Origin: a virus | Virus record (IMG/VR): IMGVR_UViG_3300037485_000435 | Location: 1-32,760 of that record | Length of the DNA: 32,760 nt | Strand: one strand, 5' to 3' | The notes under the pieces: generated by a model | Databases searched by the model: none | What the model was told of the DNA's origin: nothing | Seen by the model: only the letters and a program-made list of their open reading frames with translations | Translations under genes and position numbers: made by a program | Shown: positions 1-32,640 of the stretch, in pieces | Position numbering within the stretch: the first letter of the stretch is position 1 | How the letters are laid out: each line of letters opens with the position of its first letter

Positions 1-78
1 TATGTGAAGACCTTGTTTTGGATGAATTACTTCAAGCTGAAAGCGGAACAAGATTACATATTACAAAGACATGGCTGA
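1..78 (+). CDS. 3' end of frameshifted tail-assembly chaperone (partial)
   Basis: This is the end of the gene that begins at 31924, carried over the circular join. The -1 reading frame entered at the T-run at 32445-32453 stays open through this stretch and ends at the TGA at 76-78, overlapping the next start codon (ATG at 71) by 8 bp. The unshifted frame stops at 5-7. The residues here (for example FWMNYFKLKAEQDY) look like a compact helical domain, as in the T part of G/GT-type tail chaperones. The complete description is under 31924-32711. Confidence 0.75.
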   Translation, partial: YVKTLFWMNYFKLKAEQDYILQRHG

Positions 79-127
79 TGATCTGCAATTTCTTGATTCA
101 CTTGGTATCTCGCAGACTGAGCTTAGT
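1..127. repeat. Terminal overlap, left copy
   Basis: These 127 bases are identical to 32634-32760. Genes read straight through the join, so the contig is a circular or circularly permuted genome of 32,633 bp. The overlap length equals a common maximum assembly k-mer, so it is probably an assembly overlap rather than a packaged terminal repeat. Confidence 0.95.
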
Positions 128-601
128 TTGCCTGAGACAGCTTATGAAAAGTTTATCTTAGGACTAGCCAATGAGGTCACAGCACAATTTCAAGAGTATA
201 TACTTACTAATGTAAGTAATACTGGAGGACTAGCACAATCAGTAGTATACTTTCCTACTGGTGCCATGTCATTTGAGATACAAGCAGATGACTATTATAA
301 ATTCCAAGACCAAGGTGTTAATCCGGTAGGACAACAGAAATTTCAAACACCTTACAGCTTTAACTTTCCAGCTGTCACAAAGAATCATGCACTAGCTATA
401 AAGCAATGGAAAGGATACGACTTGAGTCATGCCTATGCATCAGCATCAGCTACAAAGAACAAGTATGGGATCAAGCCTCGCAATATAACTGAGAACGTGA
501 TGAGTGACGATGTCCTTGAAAGGATATCAAATGATCTAGCTACTTTGACTGGTTTAATGTTTCAGGTTTCATTTACTAAAAATACAAGAACATGGCAATA
601 A
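71..601 (+). CDS. HK97 gp10-like neck/tail completion protein
   Basis: This 176-residue protein most resembles the HK97 gp10-like family, which acts at the head-tail joint of siphoviruses. The middle has the family pattern: a YYKFQDQGVNPVG segment (about residues 75-88), then an alanine-rich helix with an AIKQW motif (about 108-114) and a KYGIKPRN segment near residue 131. It starts at ATG 71 in a GAC-ATG-GC context shared with several other tail genes. Its start overlaps the end of the frameshifted tail chaperone and its end overlaps the next gene by 10 bp, so it belongs to one translationally coupled tail operon. The family assignment is from residue patterns only. Confidence 0.6.
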   Translation: MADDLQFLDSLGISQTELSLPETAYEKFILGLANEVTAQFQEYILTNVSNTGGLAQSVVYFPTGAMSFEIQADDYYKFQDQGVNPVGQQKFQTPYSFNFPAVTKNHALAIKQWKGYDLSHAYASASATKNKYGIKPRNITENVMSDDVLERISNDLATLTGLMFQVSFTKNTRTWQ

Positions 602-1788
602 TGATAATACAAGAGCCTGAGAATTACTGGCCAATATGTAATAATGTAATATGGACCTTTGAATCAGATAAGACAACTCAACAGAATTTTAGTTTTATAG
701 TTGAAGTATATTTAAATACTGATTTACTATCTACTCATGAGGTATTCCCTGAGTCTGCAAATATGGGAAAATTTAATATTAGTGCCATAGGTAGATCTAT
801 ATTATTGACAAACTTTCCTCAACAAACTACATTATCAGCTGAGTTATTAGTTGACAATGTATGGAATTTAGTTGTGTATGAAAAGTATGGTGCTCCTCCA
901 TCTATACAATTTGGATCAGCAGAAACAACTGACAGTTTTAATTTTTTAAATGGATCATTCAGATTTTTAGAAGTATATGCTGGTAATTTTATTCCAGCTC
1001 TATATGATATAGATAATTCAAGAGGTGAATATTTCTTAACTGATTTCCCTAGAGATAAAAAGGAATATGTGCAATATCAAGAAACTAAATTCTTAAGCAT
1101 CATTAATAGTGAGAGTGACAATTGCACAGCTGAAATAAAACTATATAACATAACCAATACTTTAATTACAACAGCAACTTATGCTGTAAATGGATTGGCT
1201 ACTCCTATGTTATCAGTCGGACCAAGCAGATTAGTTGCATCTACATCATTGAATGAAAGTGATTTTACAAACTGCTACTATTATACAGTTAGATTATATC
1301 AAACAGCTACACCAACTAAGACATCTGAATCTTACAAATTATATTATGACCAGAGCTGTTACACATATGACAGCAGAAGATTGACATGGCTTAATAAGTT
1401 TGGTGCATGGGATTCATTCACCTTTAATTTATTATCTGAGAATAGCACAGATATAAAGTCAAATCAATATGAAAGATTGAGCGGTAGATATTATGATGCT
1501 GGCTTTTTATTCACTCCATCTGATGGCAATAAAATGACTATGAGTAAAAGTGTTCAAGACAAGCTAATTCTAAATAGTGATTGGATTAATCAAGATGTGC
1601 AGCAATGGCTTGTCAGAGAGTTATATGAATCGCCAAGGGTTTATATTGATTTTGATGGAATACTTTACCTAGAGCCAGTTAATATAACAAATAGTAATTC
1701 TGTACTCAAGCAAAAACGTAGAGATGGCTTGATTCAAGAGCAAGTTCAGATAGATAGAACATACACTAAACTTTCTCAATTAGGATAG
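592..1788 (+). CDS. Tail structural protein, distal-tail/baseplate candidate
   Basis: This 398-residue protein is rich in beta-strand-like segments and aromatic residues and has no catalytic motif that I recognise. A conserved-looking block around residues 264-280 (LTWLNKFGAWDSFTF) is of a type I associate with Bacteroidetes phage tail proteins of unknown structure. It lies between the gp10-like neck protein and an 801-residue tail-tip-like protein, and abuts the latter with no gap (TAG then ATG). That position and pairing suggest a distal tail or baseplate component. Two in-frame ATGs (592 and 601) are possible starts; the first gives a 10-bp overlap with the upstream gene. Confidence 0.55.
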   Translation: MAIMIIQEPENYWPICNNVIWTFESDKTTQQNFSFIVEVYLNTDLLSTHEVFPESANMGKFNISAIGRSILLTNFPQQTTLSAELLVDNVWNLVVYEKYGAPPSIQFGSAETTDSFNFLNGSFRFLEVYAGNFIPALYDIDNSRGEYFLTDFPRDKKEYVQYQETKFLSIINSESDNCTAEIKLYNITNTLITTATYAVNGLATPMLSVGPSRLVASTSLNESDFTNCYYYTVRLYQTATPTKTSESYKLYYDQSCYTYDSRRLTWLNKFGAWDSFTFNLLSENSTDIKSNQYERLSGRYYDAGFLFTPSDGNKMTMSKSVQDKLILNSDWINQDVQQWLVRELYESPRVYIDFDGILYLEPVNITNSNSVLKQKRRDGLIQEQVQIDRTYTKLSQLG

Positions 1789-4194
1789 ATGGAGCTGTAT
1801 ATAAATAATTATAAGGTAGATATCAATGAGAGACTTCCATTTCCATTGACTTATAATATCTCAGATATCAAAGATTTAAAATCAAGGAAAGGTAACAACT
1901 CCAAGACTATCACACTACCTGGCACTAAAGGTAATTTGTTTCTTTTTTACAATGCATTTAGTTTAACAGTCACAAGAAACATATCAGGACAAGTAAATTC
2001 ATTTGACTTTGATCCTACAGTAAAAGTAACTGCTAGATATTATGAACAAGGTTTGCTGCAATTCAATGGTTTTTGTCAGTTATCAGATTGTGAATTAATT
2101 GATGGTGAATGGGCAATTAATGTCTTGTTATTTAGTGATCAGATAGATTATATTTCAAAGCTTGCAAAAATAAATATCAACGAGCTTGATTGGTCAGAAT
2201 ACAATCATAATTGCTTGAAATCAGATCAAGAGGATTCATGGGCTGGTACCATTCAGGTGAATGGCACACCAACAAGTAATAAGACTGGAGCTAATTGGGA
2301 TGGACTAGGATACTACTATGGACTTATTGACTATGGTTTTAATAGGCCATCACCTTCTGCATTTGCTGTTCAGCATATTGCTCCTCAAGTATTTTGTTAT
2401 GATATTCTAAAAAGAATATTTGACTATTGTGGGATAACATGGTCCTCAGACTTTCTTGAGTCTCAAACATTTAAAAGGTTATTGATAGCATATGGAGGTG
2501 GGGATTTCCCCAACATTACTGAGGCAGAGGCAGATGAATTATCTTCAATAAATGATGAATTAAATAAAACATCAGGATTTATAGCTAGTGCAAATATTAC
2601 AAATACTGCTTTTCAAAGTATATCAGCTGGATTAGTTGGGGCTGGATATAATCCTTTGAGTACATATCAAAGTGTCTCAGTAAATGCTGTTAATGATCCA
2701 ACTGGACAAACTACTTCGGAGGATCCAGTTAAATTTGAAGCAGCATCAGCAGGATTGTATACTATACAATATTCAGGTGATCATGAGGTTACTCTTGACT
2801 TTACTACTGTGGGAGCTACTTTGCTAAGTGCTCATTTAAATATTTCACTCAGATTAAGAATCAGAAAAAATGGTTTTATAATAGATGAAGATACGATTTA
2901 CAACATCGATTATAATGCCATCACTTCAGATAACGTACAAACAATAAGTTTTAATTATACAAGACAATTAAACTTATTTATAAATGATGAGATTACGTTT
3001 GAGTATAGACTATTTAGTAGCATATCAAATAACAATTCTGTCTATTTGAGTGCTATACCTTCATCATTTAGCACAGCTTTTAAAATTAAAAATTTAAATG
3101 CTGAGATTAATTTTCTTAAAAATCCTCAATCTTTTGCTCCTGGTTTATCAATTAATTTGAGCGACTTTTTGCCTAAGATGGATGGAGCTACATTTTTAAA
3201 GGGATTTGTAACTGCTTTTAATTTATATGTAAAGTCATCAGTTGATGATCCAAGCATTCTTGAAATAGAGCCTTTGAATGATTTTTATGATGATTCATCA
3301 ACAGCTTTAAATTGGACACAGAAACTAGATCTTTCTAAAAGCATTAAAGTCACACCGACAATAAATTTTGCCAGTAAAGAATATCTATTCTCATTTGAAA
3401 AGGATGCAGATTACTATAATCAAAATTACCTTCAAGATGTTGGTGATCAATATGGTTCTTTTTTAATAGACTCAAGGAATCAATTCAGCAAAGATACAAC
3501 TGAATTCAAGTTGCCTTTTGCACAGAAGCTGCTAGTTAATATACCTTTTGATGAGACTACATTTACTAATATCATTGTACCTAGGACATTCCAAATAAGA
3601 ACAGATACAGATGGAATATCATCACAAGCGATACAGAATGGCAAGCCATTTATTGTACAGCTTGGACCAATGACTACAGCTAACTGGACATATATTGATG
3701 AGAATGGATTAGGACATGCAGAGACGAGTTATCCATATGTTGGGCATTTAGATAGTTTAACATCACCTACATTTGACTTTAATTTTGGTGTGCCTGATTA
3801 TGTATACTATCAAGATGCAATCTATACAACAAGAAATTTATTCTTTTATCATGAGGAATTTATTAAAGAAATAATATCAAGATATGGCAAGCAAATTAAT
3901 TGCTCAATAAATATCACTCCTGAAATGGTGAATCAGCTTGATTTTAAGAAATTAATCAATATTGATGGCATAGTTTATAGATTACAAAAGATAGAAAATT
4001 GGGATAGTGGAAAGGATCAGACTACAAATGTGGAACTGATTCGCATAATAAAGGGAGAAGGATTGGTGTCATTTGATATTGAATTACCATTTGATCCTTT
4101 TGCTAAACAGAATGTAAGAATGACTGAAGGCAAGTTTACAGCTGGAGCTCAGTCAAGAATAACAGAAGATAATATAACTAGAGTAATAGAATAG
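1789..4194 (+). CDS. Large tail-tip (Tal-like) structural protein
   Basis: This 801-residue protein is a large virion component. Its N-terminus (YINNYKVDINE, then a DIKDLKSRKGNNSKTITLPGT-like stretch near residues 27-46) resembles the first beta domain of large tail-associated proteins of Bacteroidetes phages. The middle is beta-rich, and residues near 675-765 are again compact, ending in a charged tail. The last residues (SRITEDNITRVIE) resemble the end of the 45-residue product encoded at 4463-4600. It is a good candidate for the tail-tip protein that contacts the host surface. No hydrolase motif is evident. The start codon directly follows the stop of the previous gene. Confidence 0.6.
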   Translation: MELYINNYKVDINERLPFPLTYNISDIKDLKSRKGNNSKTITLPGTKGNLFLFYNAFSLTVTRNISGQVNSFDFDPTVKVTARYYEQGLLQFNGFCQLSDCELIDGEWAINVLLFSDQIDYISKLAKININELDWSEYNHNCLKSDQEDSWAGTIQVNGTPTSNKTGANWDGLGYYYGLIDYGFNRPSPSAFAVQHIAPQVFCYDILKRIFDYCGITWSSDFLESQTFKRLLIAYGGGDFPNITEAEADELSSINDELNKTSGFIASANITNTAFQSISAGLVGAGYNPLSTYQSVSVNAVNDPTGQTTSEDPVKFEAASAGLYTIQYSGDHEVTLDFTTVGATLLSAHLNISLRLRIRKNGFIIDEDTIYNIDYNAITSDNVQTISFNYTRQLNLFINDEITFEYRLFSSISNNNSVYLSAIPSSFSTAFKIKNLNAEINFLKNPQSFAPGLSINLSDFLPKMDGATFLKGFVTAFNLYVKSSVDDPSILEIEPLNDFYDDSSTALNWTQKLDLSKSIKVTPTINFASKEYLFSFEKDADYYNQNYLQDVGDQYGSFLIDSRNQFSKDTTEFKLPFAQKLLVNIPFDETTFTNIIVPRTFQIRTDTDGISSQAIQNGKPFIVQLGPMTTANWTYIDENGLGHAETSYPYVGHLDSLTSPTFDFNFGVPDYVYYQDAIYTTRNLFFYHEEFIKEIISRYGKQINCSINITPEMVNQLDFKKLINIDGIVYRLQKIENWDSGKDQTTNVELIRIIKGEGLVSFDIELPFDPFAKQNVRMTEGKFTAGAQSRITEDNITRVIE

Positions 4195-4196
4195 AC

Positions 4197-4463
4197 ATGG
4201 CAATTTGGGAAGAGATCTTGGTGGCAAGCCAAGGAACAGTGATAGTGAATGACACCACTGAGAAAGTAGTAAGTTTTGATGCAATCTTTGTCCTTGAGGA
4301 CACTGTATTCAACAGCATCAAGGTAGCTGGAGTTGACATCAAAGCTGAGTTAATTACAACACCAGGCACAGCAGTGAAAGCTGGTGCTATGATCAGATGT
4401 ACTGGTGCTCGCAAATTTTCAGCTGTAGACTTGACTAGCGGATCTGTAGCAATTATATTGTAA
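4197..4463 (+). CDS. Small beta-rich virion protein, unknown
   Basis: This 88-residue protein alternates hydrophobic and polar residues throughout, as in a small all-beta domain, with a pattern of FDAIFVLEDTVFNSIKV near residues 28-43 and VDLTSGSVAIIL at the end. Similar short proteins lie beside fibre genes in Bacteroidetes phages, but I cannot assign a function. It starts 2 bases after the tail-tip gene, in a GAC-ATG-GC context, and its stop codon shares a base with the next small gene. A role as a decoration or tail-accessory protein is inferred from position only. Confidence 0.5.
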   Translation: MAIWEEILVASQGTVIVNDTTEKVVSFDAIFVLEDTVFNSIKVAGVDIKAELITTPGTAVKAGAMIRCTGARKFSAVDLTSGSVAIIL

Positions 4464-5110: not shown

Positions 5111-6615
5111 TAATCAATCCATATTTAGTGCAGCCAAGTAATGCCTACGGCACACTAACTACTGCGTGGATAGCAGCTACGGGAGAAACTGATTTAACTA
5201 TCTTGGGCGCATTGAATACGCTTGAGACAGACCTAACTACCTATGGACTTACTTCTAAAATGAAGGCTTTGTATCCAATGGTCGGAGGTACTGCGGGAAA
5301 GCATAAGTTTAATTTTATGGATGCCCGTGATTTAGATGCAGCCTTTAGATTAGTATTCAACGGAGGATGGACTCATTCAGTTAATGGAGCTTTGCCTAAC
5401 GGAACTAATGCCTATGCCGATACTAAATTAAATACAAGCACAGTTTTATCTATATCAAGCGCTCATATCTCACATTATGCAAGAACTACACCGAATGGTG
5501 GTGTATTAATGGCTAATGATAGTTTAGATTGTATCTTACAATTATCAGGTGGACAATTATACGGTTCATTAGCAACTGCAAGTTTTAGTAGTACTACTCA
5601 AGCTAATGTTACTGGTTTCTATATGGTTAATAGACCAAATGGAACAAATCAAAAACTAATTAGAAATTCAACTATATTATTGAATGATTCTAAAACATCT
5701 ACAAGTTTTTCAAATAAAAATATATTTTTAGGTGCATATAACGGAGGTCCAGCATTCCCTTCTAACGCTGAAATAGCAATAGCATCCATAGGTGATGGAT
5801 TTACAGATACGGAAGCAGCTAATTTCTACACTGCGGTACAGACTTTCCAAACAACTTTAGGAAGGTCTATAGGTACACAAACAGTTAGTGATTCAGATGC
5901 ACAAGCATTTGTAACGGCTGCAAGTATTACAGACCAAGTACAAGCTAATGCAGTTAATAACTTTGTAATAGGTCTTAAAGCTGATGGACTATGGACTAAG
6001 ATGAAAGCAATCTATCCTATGGTAGGAGGTACTGCGGCAAGTCATAAATTCAACTTGAAAAATCCTTTAGATACAGATGCAGCCTACAGATTAGTGTTTA
6101 ATGGTGGATGGACACATAGTTCTACGGGTGCATTGCCTAACGGGAGTAACGCTTATGCTGATACTAAATTAAGAGCATTTACTGCTTTATCTGCTTCATC
6201 TTCTCACGTTTCATCATATGTTAGAACTACTCCTAATTCTAATGTATTTGTTGGTCACGATTCATTAGATTTGTTTATGGAAATAGATGCGGGAGTAATG
6301 TATGGTTCATTAGCAACTGCAAGTTTTAGTAGTACTACTCAAGCTAATGTTACTGGTTTCTATATGGTCAATAGACCAAACGGAACAAACCAAAAGTTGA
6401 TTAGAAACTCAACTATATTATTGAATGATAGTAAGGCATCATCAAATTTTGCTAATACACAAGATATAATTTTAGCTGCATACAATCCATCTAATCAATT
6501 TTCTAACGCTGAAATAGCAATAGCTTCAATAGGAGATGGCCTAACAGACACCGAAGCAGCTAACTTCTATACAAGAGTACAAACATATCAAACTGCATTA
6601 AGCAGAAACGTATAA
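5107..6615 (+). CDS. Lectin-like adhesin with two tandem domains
   Basis: This 502-residue protein is built from two copies of a domain of about 200-247 residues. Landmarks recur exactly 247 residues apart: YPMVGG at 56 and 303, followed by FNGGWTHS, ALPNG.NAYADTKL, SLATASFSSTTQANVTG and NAEIAIASIGDG in both copies. The order of strands and the NG.NAYA motif suggest a LamG/concanavalin-type carbohydrate-binding fold. The copies share 65 identical bases at 5563-5627 and 6304-6368 but differ more elsewhere. CG dinucleotides look commoner here than in the neighbouring tail genes, consistent with acquisition by transfer. It probably binds host surface glycan; that role is inferred. Confidence 0.65.
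   Translation: MIINPYLVQPSNAYGTLTTAWIAATGETDLTILGALNTLETDLTTYGLTSKMKALYPMVGGTAGKHKFNFMDARDLDAAFRLVFNGGWTHSVNGALPNGTNAYADTKLNTSTVLSISSAHISHYARTTPNGGVLMANDSLDCILQLSGGQLYGSLATASFSSTTQANVTGFYMVNRPNGTNQKLIRNSTILLNDSKTSTSFSNKNIFLGAYNGGPAFPSNAEIAIASIGDGFTDTEAANFYTAVQTFQTTLGRSIGTQTVSDSDAQAFVTAASITDQVQANAVNNFVIGLKADGLWTKMKAIYPMVGGTAASHKFNLKNPLDTDAAYRLVFNGGWTHSSTGALPNGSNAYADTKLRAFTALSASSSHVSSYVRTTPNSNVFVGHDSLDLFMEIDAGVMYGSLATASFSSTTQANVTGFYMVNRPNGTNQKLIRNSTILLNDSKASSNFANTQDIILAAYNPSNQFSNAEIAIASIGDGLTDTEAANFYTRVQTYQTALSRNV
5563..5627 (+). repeat. Intragenic direct repeat, copy 1
   Basis: These 65 bases are identical to 6304-6368, 741 bp downstream in the same reading frame. They encode GSLATASFSSTTQANVTG and flanking residues. 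Bases on either side differ at many third codon positions, so identity is confined to this core. Confidence 0.9.
6304..6368 (+). repeat. Intragenic direct repeat, copy 2
   Basis: This is the second copy of the 65-base repeat at 5563-5627. The spacing of 741 bp is a multiple of three, so recombination between the copies would delete or add one complete adhesin domain without breaking the frame. Confidence 0.9.
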
Positions 6616-16052: not shown

Positions 16053-16569
16053 GTTTTTTCAAGGTGACTTCCTTGATGCAATCAGCAGAGATGCTGCTGA
16101 GTATCCTCTCATGGTGGCAACATTGCAACCTGGTGGAATGGGTGCCGGTTATGTCAGAGTAAATATCGTCATCACTATCTGTGATAAATACAATCTTTCA
16201 AACTATAGGCAAATCAATGAGGTCCATTCAGATTGCCTATTGATATGCAATGACATCAAGACTACTTTACAGCAATACAGATGGACTGAATTTGCTGATG
16301 TCACAGCTGAGATAGCAACAGATCCCTTCATCAATCAAGGTCAAGACATGGTGGCTGGATGGACTATGCTACTATCTTTGAATATTTTTGATGCAGAGGA
16401 TTGGTGTGCCATCCCTTATGATGATTATGACTTTGAGAATGGCAATCCTCCATCGACTGAATGTGGTGATCTGACTACCACATACAATGTATATGTGAAT
16501 GGAATACTTGAGGATACATTCACACAGAACACAACAGAAAATAATACAATCAATATAACACTAAGCTAA
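15982..16569 (+). CDS. Tail terminator/completion-type protein
   Basis: This 195-residue protein has the outline of phage tail completion proteins: an N-terminal helix (LNQIMLELQEIATQHRQINEF), an AAEYPLMVATLQPGG strand, a VRVNIVITICDKY strand and the ATDPFINQGQDMVAGWTMLL block near residues 110-130, ending at DWCAIPYDD. It follows the connector gene, the expected place. Residues 160-195 form an extra Thr/Asn-rich tail (TYNVYVNGILEDTFTQN) that may be an added beta domain; it touches the fibre gene that follows, and the stop and start codons share one base. Confidence 0.6.
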   Translation: MEKTLNQIMLELQEIATQHRQINEFFQGDFLDAISRDAAEYPLMVATLQPGGMGAGYVRVNIVITICDKYNLSNYRQINEVHSDCLLICNDIKTTLQQYRWTEFADVTAEIATDPFINQGQDMVAGWTMLLSLNIFDAEDWCAIPYDDYDFENGNPPSTECGDLTTTYNVYVNGILEDTFTQNTTENNTINITLS

Positions 16570-17873
16570 TGGCAACTACAAATATCAACATAACCAATAC
16601 AGCTCAAGATCTTCAATCAGTAACTGATGAAGGGAATACAACAAACAACAACATCAATCTTGATAACAGTGCTATTGTTTTAGACAATGGATCACTTTTG
16701 CAAAAGGGTACTCTTGACAATGGAGCTGGAGGAGGCATTGCTAGAGTTTGTTCAATTGGTTACCAAGATGAGTGGGAAAATGGTGTGCAGTATTTTCTTG
16801 ATAACAATAGTGCTCAAATCATCAGAGCTAATTCAATCAATAATACTGTACCAGATACGTCATTTGATATAACAAAAAATTATATTGTTGGAAGTATATT
16901 CCATGACATGAATAATCAGAACAAGTATATCTGTACTGACAATACAGAAGATGCAGCAACATGGGATTTATTCTATGAGGATGCACCTAATTTGCAAGCT
17001 GTAACTGATGAAGGTGCAATCACCACAAATACTATATCAGTAGGAGATTTGTCTGGGTTATACTCTGAGATATCAGGATCAACTATAGGAACTTCCAGCG
17101 TTCCGAATGGTACTTATGCATATATGTCCCAAGATGGTACTGTAGGGATGAATAATGGAGATGTAGAATCAGCATTCAAAAACACCAATGTAAGTGCTGC
17201 GAATAATGTAGTGCTAGAATTCCCTGACAAGACATCAGGCAGTTATACAATAGCTACCACTGATGATATACCAGCAGCACAGATTCAATCAGACTGGAAT
17301 CAATCAAATAATGCTGCACTTGATTACATCAAGAACAAGCCTACTATCACAGCTGCTACAAATTATGGTCTCTTTGCTCAGACTGCAAACAGCACTTTAA
17401 TTACTAACACTACTGTGGAAAGCAGTCTTATAAATGGCGGTGTAGGTACATTGACTATACCAGCAAATGGATTCTCTGTAGGTGATTCTTTCAGAGCTGT
17501 GTTCGGTGGTATAGTGAATGCTAATAATAATCAAACTATAAGAATTAGAGTTAAGGCTGGATCTATTCTTTTATTAGATAGTGGTGCACAGAATCTAGGC
17601 AGTAGTGTTATAAATGATGTGTGGTCTTTAAATATTGACTTTACCATTAGAGCTATTGGCGCAGCTGGTGTGGCATCAATTGTAAGTTTAGGTTCGTTTC
17701 ACTATACAAAAACTAACAATGCATCTGTTCAAGGATTTGGATTTAACACAGTCAATAACACAACATTTAGCACAACAATTTCTAATGTATTAAATGTCAC
17801 AGCTCAATGGGGATCTGCTTCTGCTGGGAACAATATTTATTCTGACATATTCGTACTCAATAAGATATACTAA
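16569..17873 (+). CDS. Second tail fibre protein
   Basis: This 434-residue protein has a fibre architecture. The N-terminal half is Asn/Thr/Asp-rich with a twice-used LQ(S/A)VTDEG motif (about residues 15 and 142), typical of repeated shaft units. A QSDWNQSNNAALDYIKNKPT block near residues 239-258 is a known fibre motif before the tip. The last 170 residues form a beta-rich domain with NGFSVGDSFRAVFGG, probably a jelly-roll tip. It lies between neck and lysis genes, far from the adhesin cluster at 4604-6876, so the phage has two separate adhesion loci. Receptor binding is inferred. Confidence 0.75.
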   Translation: MATTNINITNTAQDLQSVTDEGNTTNNNINLDNSAIVLDNGSLLQKGTLDNGAGGGIARVCSIGYQDEWENGVQYFLDNNSAQIIRANSINNTVPDTSFDITKNYIVGSIFHDMNNQNKYICTDNTEDAATWDLFYEDAPNLQAVTDEGAITTNTISVGDLSGLYSEISGSTIGTSSVPNGTYAYMSQDGTVGMNNGDVESAFKNTNVSAANNVVLEFPDKTSGSYTIATTDDIPAAQIQSDWNQSNNAALDYIKNKPTITAATNYGLFAQTANSTLITNTTVESSLINGGVGTLTIPANGFSVGDSFRAVFGGIVNANNNQTIRIRVKAGSILLLDSGAQNLGSSVINDVWSLNIDFTIRAIGAAGVASIVSLGSFHYTKTNNASVQGFGFNTVNNTTFSTTISNVLNVTAQWGSASAGNNIYSDIFVLNKIY

Positions 17874-26432: not shown

Positions 26433-26930
26433 GTGTTCTGGAACAGAGAAGCATACAATATCGCACTCAAGATCACTGGCGGATCAGAGCTACATCGTGA
26501 CCTTGTCTCAGATGTGTTCATCATACTCAGCCAGTACAATATCTCAGATGCCGATCTACCAAAGACCTTTGCAAGGTTTGCGTATAATCAGTGGAAATGG
26601 CCTGGTAGTGAATTCAACAAGAAATTCAATCCCCCAATACGTCTCATCCCATACGAGTCAGATGTTGCCTCCAAGGAAACAGATGAAGACATATCAGAAT
26701 ATCAAAAGTATCTTGATTGCTACATGGAGAGATCTCCAGAGAATGATCAAGAGATGTTTTGCAAAGAGATAACCAAGATGCATCTATACGGCATGACATA
26801 CAGAGATATCAAGGCAGAAACTAATCTGCCTCTCAGAGTCATCCATGGTGCCATAAAACAATTTAAAAATGATCTACATTTTATTCATACTGGCGAGCCT
26901 AGGGATAGCGAGAGCATTCATGACCTTTGA
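26433..26930 (+). CDS. Sigma factor-like transcription regulator
   Basis: This 165-residue protein has the size and two-part layout of ECF-type sigma factors. The N-terminal region (ALKITGGSELHRDLVSDVFI, about residues 11-30) resembles region 2 with its DLV.DVF helix. The C-terminal part (MHLYGMTYRDIKAETNLPLR, about 116-135) resembles the region 4 helix-turn-helix. The start is a GTG one base after the preceding stop; no ATG is available. Late genes lack the host-type promoter, so this may direct RNA polymerase to late promoters. Similarity is weak and a different HTH regulator is possible. Confidence 0.55.
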   Translation: MFWNREAYNIALKITGGSELHRDLVSDVFIILSQYNISDADLPKTFARFAYNQWKWPGSEFNKKFNPPIRLIPYESDVASKETDEDISEYQKYLDCYMERSPENDQEMFCKEITKMHLYGMTYRDIKAETNLPLRVIHGAIKQFKNDLHFIHTGEPRDSESIHDL

Positions 26931-27081: not shown

Positions 27082-27227
27082 CCGACAAACTGATGACTGA
27101 TCATGACAAGTATTTTGCCATGATTGGTGCAATACTACTGCATGAGCTGCACAATAGCAGAGAGCTGCGCCGAAAGATTAAAGGAACAAAGCTAGAGTAT
27201 AAACTACTTAAAATTATGAAACCATGA
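27066..27227 (+). CDS. 53-residue hypothetical protein
   Basis: This frame starts 16 bases before the end of the membrane protein gene and ends with an ATGA overlap with the next gene. The product is helical and charged (MGEQVTDKLMTDHDKYFAMI, later SRELRRKIKGTKLEYK). Without it there would be a gap of 142 bp. No family recognised. Confidence 0.5.
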   Translation: MGEQVTDKLMTDHDKYFAMIGAILLHELHNSRELRRKIKGTKLEYKLLKIMKP

Positions 27228-27577
27228 TATCAGAAGAACTGATGAGCCAGGTGCAGAGATACATGAGAAGCAGATCCTTTGCACTGACTGAGCCAATGAA
27301 AGAAGAACTAGGCATATGGTACAAGGTGAACAAGTCTGCTGTGCTCAATAAGAAATGTGGCACATGCCTTCGCAATGCAATGAGAGACCTATCAGGTCAC
27401 ATACAAGAGAATCTCAATACACAGATCAAACCAGCGAAGATCACATTCATTGGAACTAAACAATACAACTACGACACCATGAGCTACAATGATATGAAGG
27501 CATTGGCTAAAGATAGAGGACTAAACCTAGGAGCTGCACCAAAGAAAGCGGACCTACTTAACGCATTGAAATCATGA
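27224..27577 (+). CDS. Protein with SAP/HeH-like C-terminus
   Basis: This 117-residue protein has a Cys pair (KKCGTCLRNAM, about residues 43-53) in its helical N-terminal half and a C-terminal SYNDMKALAKDRGLNLG segment followed by KKADLLNALK, typical of SAP or HeH/LEM helix-extension-helix domains that bind DNA. It probably binds DNA through that tail. It is coupled on both sides by ATGA overlaps and sits at the join between the DNA genes and the glycan-type cassette. Confidence 0.55.
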   Translation: MISEELMSQVQRYMRSRSFALTEPMKEELGIWYKVNKSAVLNKKCGTCLRNAMRDLSGHIQENLNTQIKPAKITFIGTKQYNYDTMSYNDMKALAKDRGLNLGAAPKKADLLNALKS

Positions 27578-28293
27578 TTGTAGCACCCATTCCAGTATTT
27601 GGCAGATTGCCATTACTAAGATTCACCATCACTAGACTTCAAAAAGCTGGTGTCAAAGTTATCTGCATGGGCCATGAGGCTGAGGCTAAAGAGCTAGCCA
27701 TTGAGCTAGGATGTGAGTGGATAGAACAATCCAATGATCCACTGGGTGCCAAATGGAACAGCGGATTTTTGGCAGCTAAGAAATACAATCCTACTGGGGT
27801 GCTATTTGTTGGCTCTTCTGATTGGGTGTCAGACAATTATATCAAGGAGGCTGAAGAAAAGATGAAAGAGTTTGACATGGTAGGAAAGCTAGGATGTCAC
27901 TTCGTGGATGTATCTGATGACATCAGACTTGTCAACTGGACTGGCTACGGCAAAGGACCAAGATCTTATGAGCCAATAGGAATAGGCAGAGTTTTATCTC
28001 ACAGATTCCTTGAGAGGATAAACTGGCAGCCATTCGACAAGAGATTAAACAGCGGACTAGACTGGGCAATGTGGCTCAGAGCAATAGTCACTGATGCATC
28101 TGTGGGAGTATTTGATTCTGATGAGGTTAAATTCTTATCAATCAGCACTGATAAGTGGGATAATAAACATAAATTTGACGATCACTGGGGCAATAAGCTC
28201 AAGAGTGAGAAGATATATGGTGATGATAAAGATGAATTTCTCAAGTCATTCACTGAAATATATGAGCTACAAGAGATATTATGCAAAGAGTAA
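27574..28293 (+). CDS. GT2-like glycosyltransferase
   Basis: This 239-residue protein looks like a GT-A fold glycosyltransferase. MIVAPIPVFGRLPLLRFTIT is the usual first strand and helix, AKWNSGFLAAKKYNPTGVLF precedes a GSSDWVSDNYI motif in the DxD position (about residues 85-95), and GLDWAMWLRAI may be the acceptor-side region. The likely reaction is transfer of a sugar from a nucleotide-sugar donor; acceptor unknown. It opens a chain of overlapping genes with a methyltransferase and an amidotransferase-like enzyme, which suggests work on one glycan. Confidence 0.65.
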   Translation: MIVAPIPVFGRLPLLRFTITRLQKAGVKVICMGHEAEAKELAIELGCEWIEQSNDPLGAKWNSGFLAAKKYNPTGVLFVGSSDWVSDNYIKEAEEKMKEFDMVGKLGCHFVDVSDDIRLVNWTGYGKGPRSYEPIGIGRVLSHRFLERINWQPFDKRLNSGLDWAMWLRAIVTDASVGVFDSDEVKFLSISTDKWDNKHKFDDHWGNKLKSEKIYGDDKDEFLKSFTEIYELQEILCKE

Positions 28294-28820
28294 AGGGTAA
28301 AATAAACACAAACAGCATTGAATTCTGGAATGAATACTATGCTAATGTTATTATTGAAGAGGATAGGCTGATAATTTATGAGCAACTTTCTGAGATACTT
28401 GACTGCATAAAGTTCAATACTATCCTTGAGATCGGATGTGGCACCGGTATAGGAGCTGAATATCTCAAGAGTAAATTCGATTGCATCTATACAGCATCAG
28501 ACTTCTCAAGCAGTGCCATCATAAAAGCATCTGATAAAGCTGACTACACAAAGCTGCTGGATATCAGAACAGATGAGCCAGTGGGCCAATACGATGTGAT
28601 CATCATTGCAGAAACACTAGAACATCTTGAGCATCCATTTGAGGTGATTGACAAATGTAAAAAGCATTGTAAATATCTTGTGCTATCTTTGCCACTAGAT
28701 GAGCCTGAAGATTGTGATTCTGAGCATATCTGGTACAACATTAAACCAGAGGACTTTCTTGATTACAAAATACATACAGTAAAACTAAATGAAAGCTACT
28801 TTCAAATAATTATAACATGA
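28281..28820 (+). CDS. SAM-dependent methyltransferase
   Basis: This 179-residue protein is a class I methyltransferase. Motif I is ILEIGCGTG (residues 48-56), the acidic ribose-binding position is in ASDFS (Asp74), and DVIIIAETLEHLEHP is the following strand motif, as in small-molecule methyltransferases of type 11. It lacks the catalytic motifs of DNA methyltransferases (no DPPY-like or PC motif), so a sugar or other small-molecule substrate is likelier. It overlaps the glycosyltransferase by 13 bp and the next gene by 4. Confidence 0.75.
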   Translation: MQRVKGKINTNSIEFWNEYYANVIIEEDRLIIYEQLSEILDCIKFNTILEIGCGTGIGAEYLKSKFDCIYTASDFSSSAIIKASDKADYTKLLDIRTDEPVGQYDVIIIAETLEHLEHPFEVIDKCKKHCKYLVLSLPLDEPEDCDSEHIWYNIKPEDFLDYKIHTVKLNESYFQIIIT

Positions 28821-29887
28821 AAAAAGAATGTAAAAGATGCCTATTCACTTCTGACTTCTCAGTCTTGAATGACAAGCAATGTAACTACTGTGACCTACAT
28901 GATGAGCTACAGAAACAAGCCAATCCGGATGGGCTGCATGACATGCTCAACAAGATCAGAGAACATGGCTATGGTGACAAATATGATTGCATCATGGGCA
29001 TCAGTGGAGGACTAGACTCATCTACTCTGCTATATACTGCTGTACGTTACTGGGGGCTCAAGCCGCTAGTGATTCACTTCGATAATAACTGGAATGCTCC
29101 AGAGGCTGTACACAATATGCAGCAGCTAATCAAGAAGCTGAACGTGGATGCAATCACATACCAGGTGAATAAGGCTGAGTATGACAAGCTCAACGAAGCA
29201 TTCCTATACGCTGGCCTTCCTGATGCTGACATCCCCAATGACATCGCAATGACTAAACTGATGTACGATACAGCTCACAAGTACAAGATCAAGTATATCC
29301 TCAACGGGCATGATTTCAGAACTGAGGGATCTACACCAGCTGCATGGACCTACATGGATGCCAAATACATCAGGTCAGTGTACAAGGCTTATACTCAGTC
29401 AGAGCTGACCAACTATCCACTATTCACATTCAAGGACCAACTATTCTATGCTTGGAAAGGAATCAAGAACGTGAGACCATTCCACTACGGATTCGATAGA
29501 GATACTATGGAGCTAGAGATGAAACGTCTGATCAGCTGGCAAGACTATGGCGGCAAGCATTGTGAGAATGTTTACACTGAATTCGTAGGTAGCTATCTAC
29601 TGCCAAATAAGTTTGGAATAGATAAACGAATTGTATATCTTTCTGCACAAGTGAGGTCAGGCCGATTGACAAAGCAACAAGCTCGAGAATTGTTTGATGA
29701 GAAAGCTCAGTTTGACATGGAGAAATTCGGTGACTACCTACCTAAAGTTGAGGCACTGATAAACATCCGCAAAGGTGATAGAGCAAAATATGACAAGTAC
29801 AACTTCAAGGCATATAGGCCACTGATATGGATCCTAGTTAAATTGAAGGTAGTACCTTATACATTTTATACTAAATACTGCAAGTGA
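28817..29887 (+). CDS. PP-loop N-acetyl sugar amidotransferase-like enzyme
   Basis: This 356-residue protein belongs to the N-type PP-loop ATP pyrophosphatases, most like the N-acetyl sugar amidotransferases (WbpG/PseA group) that form acetamidino groups on surface sugars. A zinc-binding-type cluster CKRCLF..CNYC (Cys5, Cys8, Cys22, Cys25) opens the protein, SGGLDSS (63-69) is the PP motif, and LNGHDFRTEG is the usual second substrate region. Known partners that supply ammonia (HisH/HisF-like) are not encoded here, so host enzymes or a different nitrogen source would be needed. Modification of a phage or host glycan is the likely role. Confidence 0.75.
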   Translation: MKKECKRCLFTSDFSVLNDKQCNYCDLHDELQKQANPDGLHDMLNKIREHGYGDKYDCIMGISGGLDSSTLLYTAVRYWGLKPLVIHFDNNWNAPEAVHNMQQLIKKLNVDAITYQVNKAEYDKLNEAFLYAGLPDADIPNDIAMTKLMYDTAHKYKIKYILNGHDFRTEGSTPAAWTYMDAKYIRSVYKAYTQSELTNYPLFTFKDQLFYAWKGIKNVRPFHYGFDRDTMELEMKRLISWQDYGGKHCENVYTEFVGSYLLPNKFGIDKRIVYLSAQVRSGRLTKQQARELFDEKAQFDMEKFGDYLPKVEALINIRKGDRAKYDKYNFKAYRPLIWILVKLKVVPYTFYTKYCK

Positions 29888-30318
29888 TGCCAATACCAAC
29901 ACCAACACAATCAGAGTCTGAGAATGAATTCATCTCAAGATGTATGTCTGATGAGAAGATGAAAACTGAATACCAGAATGAAGCTCAAAGATATGCAGTA
30001 TGTGCCAGTCAATTTGCTGGTGAAAAGATATCATTTGATTATGATGGTACCATCTCAACAGCCAATGGCGAGATACTAGCAGCTGAATGGATCAGCAGAG
30101 GGGCAATAGTATACATCATTTCGGCAAGGTCAGGGAAAGTTGGAATGATGGCCAAGGCTGACAAGCTAGCTATACCTGAGTCAAGAGTCTATGCTACTGG
30201 ATCCAATAAGGCAAAAATTGAGAAGGTGCTGGAGCTAGGTGTTATAAAACACTATGATAATAATAATAATGTAGTTAATAGTTTACCTGGTATAGGTATA
30301 CTATATGGAACAAAATAA
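29887..30318 (+). CDS. HAD-like phosphatase with short N-terminal motif
   Basis: This 143-residue protein has HAD phosphatase motifs: SFDYDGT (Asp51, Asp53) as motif I, YIISARS as motif II, a GSNKAKIEK lysine region and HYDNN as the acidic motif. Before it lies a segment ENEFISRCMSDEKMKTEY plus AVCASQF (about residues 13-43) that also occurs as a short stand-alone or fused motif in phage proteins. So it is a fusion of that motif with a small phosphatase. The ATG overlaps the previous stop (TGATG). It ends the glycan-type cassette, 11 bases before the terminase genes. Confidence 0.65.
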   Translation: MPIPTPTQSESENEFISRCMSDEKMKTEYQNEAQRYAVCASQFAGEKISFDYDGTISTANGEILAAEWISRGAIVYIISARSGKVGMMAKADKLAIPESRVYATGSNKAKIEKVLELGVIKHYDNNNNVVNSLPGIGILYGTK

Positions 30319-30329
30319 CATATTACAGA

Positions 30330-30728
30330 ATGGCCTATTCTCAAGAAGTAATTGATCAGCTGGAGGACCTTGGATGGGAATATATTCAAGAGTGCCTGAA
30401 CAATACAAAGCCTCATGTCGCTGGTAGTGGTAAAGTAGTTGAGGTACCTGATAGACATATACCAACTATTGACTACTTTCTCAATATATGGATTCCTTTA
30501 AAATTAGATATGAAGCTAATTGATAGGAGAACTTGGTATAGATGGCTGAGAGAGGAGGGTGATAAAAGTCACACTATAAAAAATATTGACTCTGAATTCA
30601 TATCTCTAGGCAAGAACATTGTGGCCAATGAAGGGAAGGGAATCTTCTATGCTAAGAACAAATTTGGCATGCATGATCGCCAGCAAGTTGAAACTAGAAA
30701 TGTTGAAAACTTTGACTTTGATGAATGA
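30330..30728 (+). CDS. Terminase small subunit
   Basis: This 132-residue helical protein directly precedes and overlaps the large terminase gene (ATGA). The segment TIDYFLNIWIPLKL..LIDRRTWYRWL (about residues 46-70) fits an HTH-bearing DNA recognition domain, and the acidic end (NVENFDFDE) is typical for contact with the large subunit. It should recognise the packaging start on phage DNA. Assignment rests on position and architecture. No promoter consensus lies in the short upstream gap. Confidence 0.75.
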   Translation: MAYSQEVIDQLEDLGWEYIQECLNNTKPHVAGSGKVVEVPDRHIPTIDYFLNIWIPLKLDMKLIDRRTWYRWLREEGDKSHTIKNIDSEFISLGKNIVANEGKGIFYAKNKFGMHDRQQVETRNVENFDFDE

Positions 30729-31927
30729 GTACAATCAAAGGCTACAAGCCACATCCTAATCAGAGGCACATCCATGATGCCATCAATAAGGGATCAGAAA
30801 AATACTATGCTTTAAATATCGGCAGACAGTTTGGCAAGACCTTACTTGGAATCAATCAGCTGCTGTACTGGGCCATCAATGATAGAGGCTGTCAGATAGC
30901 TTGGGTGACTCCAGTATATAAGCAAGGCAAGAAAGTCTTTGCTGAGCTTGAAAGAGCTACAAAGAACAGCGGACTATTTGAATTCAATAAGTCAGATCTC
31001 AGAGTCACTGGCTTTGGATCATCAATAGAATTCTTTAGCGGTGAACGGCCTGACAATATCAGAGGGAATACCTTCCATTACATGGTAGTAGATGAGATGG
31101 CCTTCACAAGACCAGAGCTGTGGAATGAGGTACTATCAGCAACAGTGATGGTGAAGGGTAGAAAGGTGATATTCATCAGCACTCCGAAAGGAAAGAATCA
31201 CTTTCATACCTTGTGCATGCAACCTAACTATGATCCAAGGTACAAGTACATCCACTTCACATCTTATGAGAATCCAATGATAGCTCCTGAAGAGCTTGAG
31301 GAAAGAAAGCGGTCATTGCCTGATCATATATTCAGACAAGAATACCTGGCTGAATTCATTGACAATGCATCCGGACTATTCAAGAACGTAAGGCAATCAG
31401 CTGGCACATGGACCAAGGGTGGCAAGTGCTATGCTGGACTTGACATTGGTAGGGCAGATGACTACACTGTGCTGACAATACTGAATGAGAAAGGTGAGAT
31501 GATATATGTCAACAGATGGCGGCATGATGAGTGGAACAAGATCATTGACAAGGTGGCTGATGTCATCAGAGCATATCAAGCGGTCACATTGATAGAGGTG
31601 AATAATCAAGGGGATATCTTTTACGAGATGCTATCCAGTAGACTGCGTAACCTGGTGAATCCATTCACTACAACTAGCAAGACAAAGCCAGTCATCATTG
31701 AGGATCTAGCACTAGCCTTTGAGCAATCGGATGTGAAGGTGGCTGATGAGCAATGGCTGATAGATGAGCTAGAAAATTTTACTTATATTTACAATCCGAA
31801 TACCAGATCAGTACAATACTCTGCACCACAAGGACTTCATGATGATGGTGTGATATCATTGGCACTGGCATGGCATTGCAAGAAAAACTATTCCAAGAGA
31901 GGTCAATATAAAATACTCAGAGCATGA
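30725..31927 (+). CDS. terL: Terminase large subunit
   Basis: This 400-residue packaging motor has both domains. The ATPase has Walker A GRQFGKT (33-39), Walker B MVVDE (120-124) and the coupling motif STPKG (152-156). The C-terminal RNase H-type nuclease has Asp240 in YAGLDIGRADD, Glu291 in LIEVNNQGD and Asp373/Asp374 in LHDDGVISLA. It cuts concatemers and pumps DNA into the prohead. It overlaps both neighbours by 4 bp. Confidence 0.95.
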   Translation: MSTIKGYKPHPNQRHIHDAINKGSEKYYALNIGRQFGKTLLGINQLLYWAINDRGCQIAWVTPVYKQGKKVFAELERATKNSGLFEFNKSDLRVTGFGSSIEFFSGERPDNIRGNTFHYMVVDEMAFTRPELWNEVLSATVMVKGRKVIFISTPKGKNHFHTLCMQPNYDPRYKYIHFTSYENPMIAPEELEERKRSLPDHIFRQEYLAEFIDNASGLFKNVRQSAGTWTKGGKCYAGLDIGRADDYTVLTILNEKGEMIYVNRWRHDEWNKIIDKVADVIRAYQAVTLIEVNNQGDIFYEMLSSRLRNLVNPFTTTSKTKPVIIEDLALAFEQSDVKVADEQWLIDELENFTYIYNPNTRSVQYSAPQGLHDDGVISLALAWHCKKNYSKRGQYKILRA

Positions 31928-32640
31928 CAAAGACAATAGAGGTAAGCTATCCACAAACAATCAAAGACTGCACTCCTGATCAGTTGACTAAATGGCTGAT
32001 GCTGGCACCAGTGATTCAGACTGCTAATAAATCACTGACTAATATGCTTGACTTTCAGTCACAGATGGTCAGTATATTTACTGGAGTGCCAATCAACAAG
32101 GTCAGAAAGATTCACATTGATGACATCATGCATTCCAGCACTACACTGCTAAAGATGTTGGCTGAGCACAAGACTTCTGAACCATCTGAATTCATAACTA
32201 TCGAAGGTCAGAGATATAGGTTTGAGCGTGACTTCTCACACATTGAGACCGGTCAGATCATTGACATGAAGCTCATTGATGATGTATCACAGAATCCATG
32301 TGAGGCACTAGCTATATGCTACATTGAAGAGGGGATGGAATACTGTCAAGAAGATAACAGAGGCAAGGTTCTGAATCCTAATAAAAAGAGGGAAGAGATA
32401 TTCAAGAGGTCCTTTCCAGGTGATGAGTTTTTGAATTACTTCGCTTTTTTTTTGCGAGAATCAGAGATGCGGAATCTCGCTATCTTGGGAATACAGACAG
32501 CGAAGCTGATGAATCAGAATCAGATAATGCACAAGAAACTCTTAGAGACAGCGAATGGTTTAACTGGACAAGAATCCTCATCAACCTGGCGCAGCAGCTT
32601 AATAAAGATGTGGATGAGATTACGAGGCAGCCGTATGTGA
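31924..32640 (+). CDS. Tail-assembly chaperone, unshifted product (G-like)
   Basis: The unshifted frame encodes 238 residues. The first 176 (up to the T-run) form the body, with IEGQRYRFERDFSHIETGQI near residue 98 and KREEIFKRSFPGDEFLNYF before the slippery site. It follows the large terminase gene. After the T-run at 32445-32453 the frame stays open for another 60 or so codons (LRESEMRNLAILGIQTAKL and a basic end RLRGSRM). G/GT-type chaperones hold the tape measure protein during tail assembly. The role is inferred mainly from the frameshift arrangement. Confidence 0.7.
   Translation: MTKTIEVSYPQTIKDCTPDQLTKWLMLAPVIQTANKSLTNMLDFQSQMVSIFTGVPINKVRKIHIDDIMHSSTTLLKMLAEHKTSEPSEFITIEGQRYRFERDFSHIETGQIIDMKLIDDVSQNPCEALAICYIEEGMEYCQEDNRGKVLNPNKKREEIFKRSFPGDEFLNYFAFFLRESEMRNLAILGIQTAKLMNQNQIMHKKLLETANGLTGQESSSTWRSSLIKMWMRLRGSRM

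Follow-up and report, generated by a model that had tools for sequence, protein, structure and literature searches.

Organization of the locus

What are four overlapping genes of apparent glycan type doing directly before the terminase of a virus, and on what would their product be placed? The question is raised by IMGVR_UViG_3300037485_000435, a single virus record of 32,760 bases, which was analysed over its whole length and is referred to here as the window. In related contigs (e.g., L001), the homologue of ORF 31924-32640 directly precedes the homologue of ORF 71-601, which gives the record the appearance of a circularly permuted genome that is nearly complete. All four ORFs are on the + strand, at 27574-28293, 28281-28820, 28817-29887 and 29884-30318 (239, 179, 356 and 144 aa), with successive overlaps of 13 bp or 4 bp, directly 5' of a small terminase-like ORF that is followed by TerL. 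They lie in a proposed glycosylation slot situated between the replication genes and the terminase, with the following features:

27224-27577, + strand: conserved left flank of the slot, 117 aa with a SAP-like C-terminus, adjoining occupied and empty slots alike
27574-28293, + strand: GTA, predicted GT-A-fold (GT2-like) glycosyltransferase, 239 aa, core gene 1 (AlphaFold2 and Foldseek)
28281-28820, + strand: MT, class I SAM-dependent methyltransferase, 179 aa, alternative occupant of the middle slot (Pfam)
28817-29887, + strand: NASAT, WbuX/WbpG-type N-acetyl sugar amidotransferase, 356 aa, core gene 2 (TIGR03573)
29884-30018, + strand: first ~45 residues of a 148-aa protein whose intact form occurs in relatives, a neighbour of the cassette only
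30019-30318, + strand: HAD-like domain (FDYDGT...SARS...HYDNN), about 99 aa, a separate gene in L026 and a neighbour of the cassette only
30330-30728, + strand: small terminase-like ORF, right flank of the slot (position 5' of TerL and conservation)
30725-31927, + strand: TerL, large terminase subunit (Terminase_6N, E 3e-17; phrog_2, E 2e-46)

The first three ORFs are confirmed as more than chance by low dN/dS and by their presence across dozens of related viral contigs. The dN/dS ratios, which indicate purifying selection, were 0.04–0.06 for NASAT, similar to the terminase (0.01–0.08), and 0.07–0.17 for GTA and 0.06–0.19 for MT. Between phages, NASAT was 72–91% identical, near the value for the terminase (75–92%) and far higher than that for GTA (54–80%). 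Directly upstream of the slot, a 165-aa protein (26433-26930) showed weak similarity to sigma-70 region 2 (E 0.13).

A virus-encoded relative of the O-antigen sugar amidotransferases

ORF 3 had initially been described as a WbpG/PseA-type, amidotransferase-like PP-loop enzyme, and the WbuX/WbpG type is borne out by the TIGR03573 (WbuX) profile. The window protein matched this profile with E 7e-53 over residues 3-303 (profile positions 2-323 of 344), and 17 of 17 phage NASATs tested matched the profile as well. Since the score of the window protein, 180.2 bits, falls under the NCBI curated cut-off of 203.2 bits, it is filed here as a divergent relative rather than as certified within the TIGR03573 subfamily of NCBI. 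The motifs that define NASATs are the tetracysteine CxxCxn[GN]xCxxC and SGGxDS (PMC10607449). Throughout 17 phage sequences, the zinc-ribbon cysteines (C5, C8, C22 and C25) and the PP-loop SGGxDS (63-68) were invariant; the position two residues ahead of C22 can deviate from G/N in the phages, with K in the window protein. Bacterial enzymes of this kind function in O-antigen synthesis and ligate ammonia to the N-acetyl group of a sugar, probably with conversion of ATP to AMP and PPi (PMC10607449).

A NASAT search of bacterial and archaeal genomes returned a single relative, the WbuX of an O-antigen cluster in a Bacteroidia MAG, with 40% identity over 304 residues. Like WbuX, WbpG and LpNASAT (TIGR03573; PDB 8WEX), the phage protein combines a full-length profile match with CxxC...CxxC and SGGxDS, and it shares the stretches IHFDNNWN and GGKHxExxYTxF with the WbuX of the MAG. 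It differs from bacterial NASATs at its C-terminus, which ends in YTFYxKYCK, and it stands apart from WbuX, WbpG and LpNASAT in being virus-encoded, in its score below the cut-off, in the absence of HisH/HisF and in its separate, long-stemmed clade. In the phylogenetic tree, the phage NASATs formed one clade beside one subgroup of bacterial O-antigen NASATs (support 100/98), with a stem branch of 1.76 changes per column. This long stem, together with the score below the curated cut-off, suggests that substrate or reaction may have shifted in the phage enzymes.

The glycosyltransferase and its alternative neighbours

No Pfam match was obtained for ORF 1, and its assignment comes from the predicted structure. 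The AlphaFold2 model (pLDDT 83.5) matched, among PDB entries searched with Foldseek, a Leptospira glycosyltransferase best (6p61, E 6e-8), followed by AvpGT (4e-7), POMGNT1 (9e-7), EXTL2 and RmlT; CMP-Kdo synthetases share the fold, from E 9e-7. GTA-type phage proteins in BFVD matched it as well. These results identify GTA, at the level of a model, as a GT-A-fold, GT2-like glycosyltransferase, in agreement with the initial annotation. An alignment of 19 relatives showed an invariant GSSDW.SD at residues 80-87, where a DxD would be expected, which is not the canonical motif.

ORF 2, initially proposed to encode a small-molecule methyltransferase, is a class I SAM-dependent methyltransferase with Pfam matches to Methyltransf_23 (E 6e-12) and Methyltransf_12 (E 1e-11). 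Its place in the cassette is variable. Among 66 cassettes, the position between GTA and NASAT was occupied by MT in 19, by a 245-aa protein in 34 and by a 303-aa GT-B-like protein in 2, and was empty in 11. This position is thus an interchangeable slot, and MT is one of several occupants. The 245-aa protein had no Pfam match; its AlphaFold2 model (pLDDT 85.7) has Gtf3 (1.5e-5), the GT4 enzyme BA1558/BshA, SenB and TarM as Foldseek neighbours, and it is accordingly modelled as a glycosyltransferase of GT-B/GT4 fold.

Census of the slot in related viruses

Relatives of NASAT are encoded in at least 180 IMG/VR stretches. GTA and NASAT occurred together in 86 of 131 non-redundant loci from related viruses, and neither was found alone wherever room allows. 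This answers a check put forward in the initial annotation, whether the genes co-occur elsewhere. Slot contents were counted in the 81 loci that span the interval from the 27224 gene to the terminase, 66 with GTA and NASAT and 15 with neither. Nine of the 15 cassette-free loci had only 72–213 bp between the flanks, while six had 767–1886 bp; other glycosyltransferases were present in all five of these six longer slots that were read. The replacements were of two kinds: a GT2 (PF00535, E 6e-7) accompanied by a GT-B-like protein, and a GT2-like protein of 249 aa, the latter classed by eye and without Pfam support. Since slots lacking the pair are empty or filled by other glycosyltransferases, the slot is a place for glycan enzymes, of which the GTA and NASAT pair is either the ancestral or the most frequent set. 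At least two changes of the cassette map onto the terminase tree, and the pair appears to have been lost at least twice among near relatives.

The description of four overlapping genes as a glycan cassette therefore stands in part. The ORFs are real and lie before the terminase; the constant unit consists of ORFs 1 and 3 only, so that its core is a two-gene pair, GTA and NASAT, smaller than the four-gene cassette. A fixed four-gene cassette was ruled out, as HAD and MT are not constant partners.

In most near relatives, NASAT is followed by a 148-aa protein starting MPIPKPRPAESENEFITRCM, with the motif MPIPxPxxxExxNEFxxRCMxDEKM...QRYxVC, which is intact in L004-L026 and others. In L026, a 99-aa HAD-like protein (FDYDGT...) has a gene of its own (5213-5512) directly behind the 148-aa gene. 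By this comparison, ORF 4 is a chimera of the first ~45 residues of the 148-aa protein and a DxDGT HAD-like part, a fusion that apparently arose by deletion. HAD genes were found in 10 of the 66 cassette loci and also in L299, where GTA and NASAT are absent. The HAD phosphatase gene named initially is therefore present as a HAD-like part of a chimeric ORF, and this part is a neighbour and not a member of the cassette. In a further relative, a ParB/DNA-methyltransferase-like gene (L032:9577-10728) is inserted between NASAT and the terminase.

Ammonia partners

No HisH or HisF homologue was found in 298 viral loci. In a family scan of 148 genomes from the phylum to which the Bacteroidia MAG belongs, 21 carried NASATs above the cut-off, and HisH and/or HisF were near 19 of these 21 loci, within ~1.5 kb at 18 and 5.5 kb upstream in the MAG itself. 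The initial observation that the amidotransferase lacks its usual ammonia-supplying partners was thus reproduced (0 of 298 viral versus 19 of 21 bacterial loci), whereas the new ammonia route that it was taken to imply is not needed, as host HisH/HisF or free ammonia would suffice.

The locus of the MAG (L082, JACMRI010000001.1) is of O-antigen type, with HisH, HisF and NASAT, and also encodes a GT4-like protein, enzymes of sugar modification and two large membrane proteins, all functions except that of NASAT being read from sequence. The bacterial hisH-hisF-wbuX loci resemble the phage slot in placing NASAT together with glycosyltransferases and differ in their HisH/HisF, large membrane proteins and sugar-modifying genes; the phage retains just the final steps.

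Distribution and likely hosts

In 50,697 phage records, screened for cultured relatives, NASAT had no match with three queries, in a tblastn search that could miss very divergent NASATs, and GTA had no match with one query. GTA was also absent from 396 bacterial genomes (0/396), in a search without a positive control. No paper on phage-encoded NASATs was found in an open-access library. Prophage relatives that would indicate a host were limited to distant terminases, found in 4 of the 396 genomes from the MAG's phylum. Phages of Flavobacterium, Polaribacter, Cellulophaga and Bacteroides account for most of the primase's relatives, and the genome encodes BT4734-like_N and DUF6712 domains; the hosts are likely Bacteroidota. 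MW202710.1, considered as a relative from an exonuclease match, was rejected, with no glycan-type gene annotated and a different gene order.

Comparison with known phage glycosylation genes

Phage glycosylation is usually pictured as the work of single glycosyltransferases or of Gtr sets. In Gtr operons, phages carry glycosyltransferases able to change the surface glycans of the host; these operons include membrane proteins and belong to temperate phages. Unlike in Gtr operons, no membrane segment was seen in GTA, MT or NASAT, which are for this reason probably cytoplasmic enzymes, and no integrase was recognised among the scanned ORFs.

A closer parallel is mycobacteriophage Corndog, in which an O-methyltransferase and three glycosyltransferase-type genes (gp35-38) occupy the portal-protease interval and have been suggested to modify the capsid (PMC4351075). 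Both sets place glycosyltransferase and methyltransferase genes among packaging or structural genes. The Corndog set differs in its location between portal and protease and in having no amidotransferase in the described set; in the present cassette, NASAT is the constant partner and MT one option of several. In an uncultured phage family, probably of Bacteroidota, a sugar-amidating enzyme is as tightly conserved as the terminase. The inheritance of GTA and NASAT as a pair, with an exchangeable third gene between them, suggests that an unusual sugar is made and attached by the viruses themselves. Across genomes, the cassette forms a natural series of versions, with a methyl cap, an extra glycosyltransferase, no third gene, a replacement or a loss, and this series makes phage-built charged sugars, and their effect on adsorption or on escape from host defences, open to test.

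Proposed pathway and acceptor

We infer what the enzymes act on, which reaction they catalyse in this phage and where the product goes as follows. About even credence is given to a modular slot whose enzymes convert a nucleotide sugar of the host into an amidino sugar and transfer this sugar, with the virion as the most likely target. NASAT, an ATP-using, zinc-ribbon PP-loop enzyme, would take a nucleotide-activated N-acetyl sugar made by the host and condense its acetamido group with ammonia, yielding a basic acetamidino sugar. As the phage has no HisH/HisF, the ammonia would be free ammonium or would be supplied by HisH/HisF-type proteins of the host. The soluble GTA would then attach the amidino sugar to the acceptor, and the middle-slot gene would vary the product: a methyltransferase may cap it, a GT-B glycosyltransferase may extend it, or the sugar may be left plain. 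A virion protein would be the most likely acceptor, a preference based on the analogy with Corndog and on the fact that neither seroconversion-type membrane genes nor an integrase were recognised. Since the pair was lost at least twice, the amidino sugar is not essential to virion assembly. More tentatively, a sugar amidotransferase without a dedicated ammonia partner, combined with a swappable third enzyme, could coat the virions of a tailed phage with cationic amidino sugars, the glycan being diversified between relatives in an antigen-like variation of virions.

The same enzymes might instead place the amidino sugar on a host surface polysaccharide or lipid-linked precursor and alter the phage receptor, which would exclude co-infecting phages or stop progeny from sticking to the debris of lysed cells. 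The role of bacterial NASATs in O-antigen synthesis (PMC10607449; the L082 cluster) points in this direction, as do the strong variability of the slot between close relatives, resembling that of receptor-modifying genes, and the hypervariable genes at 71-4194, directly after the terminase region. However, the cassette comes without flippase, polymerase or membrane-anchored GtrA/GtrB, and with no integrase recognised, long-lived seroconversion of a lysogen is unlikely. Overall, we consider a host-surface target less likely than the virion, but the strongest of the rival readings.

That the four genes are unrelated accessory genes brought together by chance is very improbable: the HAD part and MT are inconstant partners and the vicinity of the terminase gathers accessory genes, but in 86 loci GTA never occurred without NASAT or NASAT without GTA, their joint loss happened at least twice, and every slot read holds glycan-type genes or nothing. 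For GTA and NASAT, co-occurrence excludes a chance neighbourhood. Least probable of all is that the enzymes hypermodify DNA or modify tRNA, the PP-loop protein being a base- or tRNA-modifying amidotransferase: such enzymes do belong to the PP-loop superfamily (weak TilS/QueC/LarE matches) and DNA is a possible substrate of phage glycosyltransferases, but WbuX is by far the best match (E 7e-53 against about 1e-5 for the others), sugar NASATs adjoin the phage clade on the tree, and no pyrimidine hydroxymethylase, deazaguanine or other DNA-hypermodification gene was recognised among the larger ORFs of the window. A grouping with tRNA- or nucleobase-modifying enzymes, named in the initial annotation as counter-evidence, was seen in neither scores nor tree, and that identity was rejected.

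With respect to the preferred virion target, two genes track the cassette, picked after the fact from the 46 window genes. Of the fiber-like protein at 16569-17873, the N/T-rich C-terminal domain of ~178 aa was present in 16 of 18 near-complete cassette genomes and in none of 7 without the cassette, which have another fiber or none in its place. An 88-aa protein (4197-4463) was found in 15 of 20 cassette genomes and in 0 of 7 without. The fiber tracks the cassette weakly, as two genomes carry the cassette without the fiber domain. With about two independent losses, two exceptions and a post hoc choice, the link of the fiber domain to the cassette is at most suggestive; it and the 88-aa protein may offer a clue to the target.

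The region at 71-4194 comprises three variable genes, of which the second and third fall to 53–57% identity between genomes in which the terminase and NASAT are 92–99% identical.
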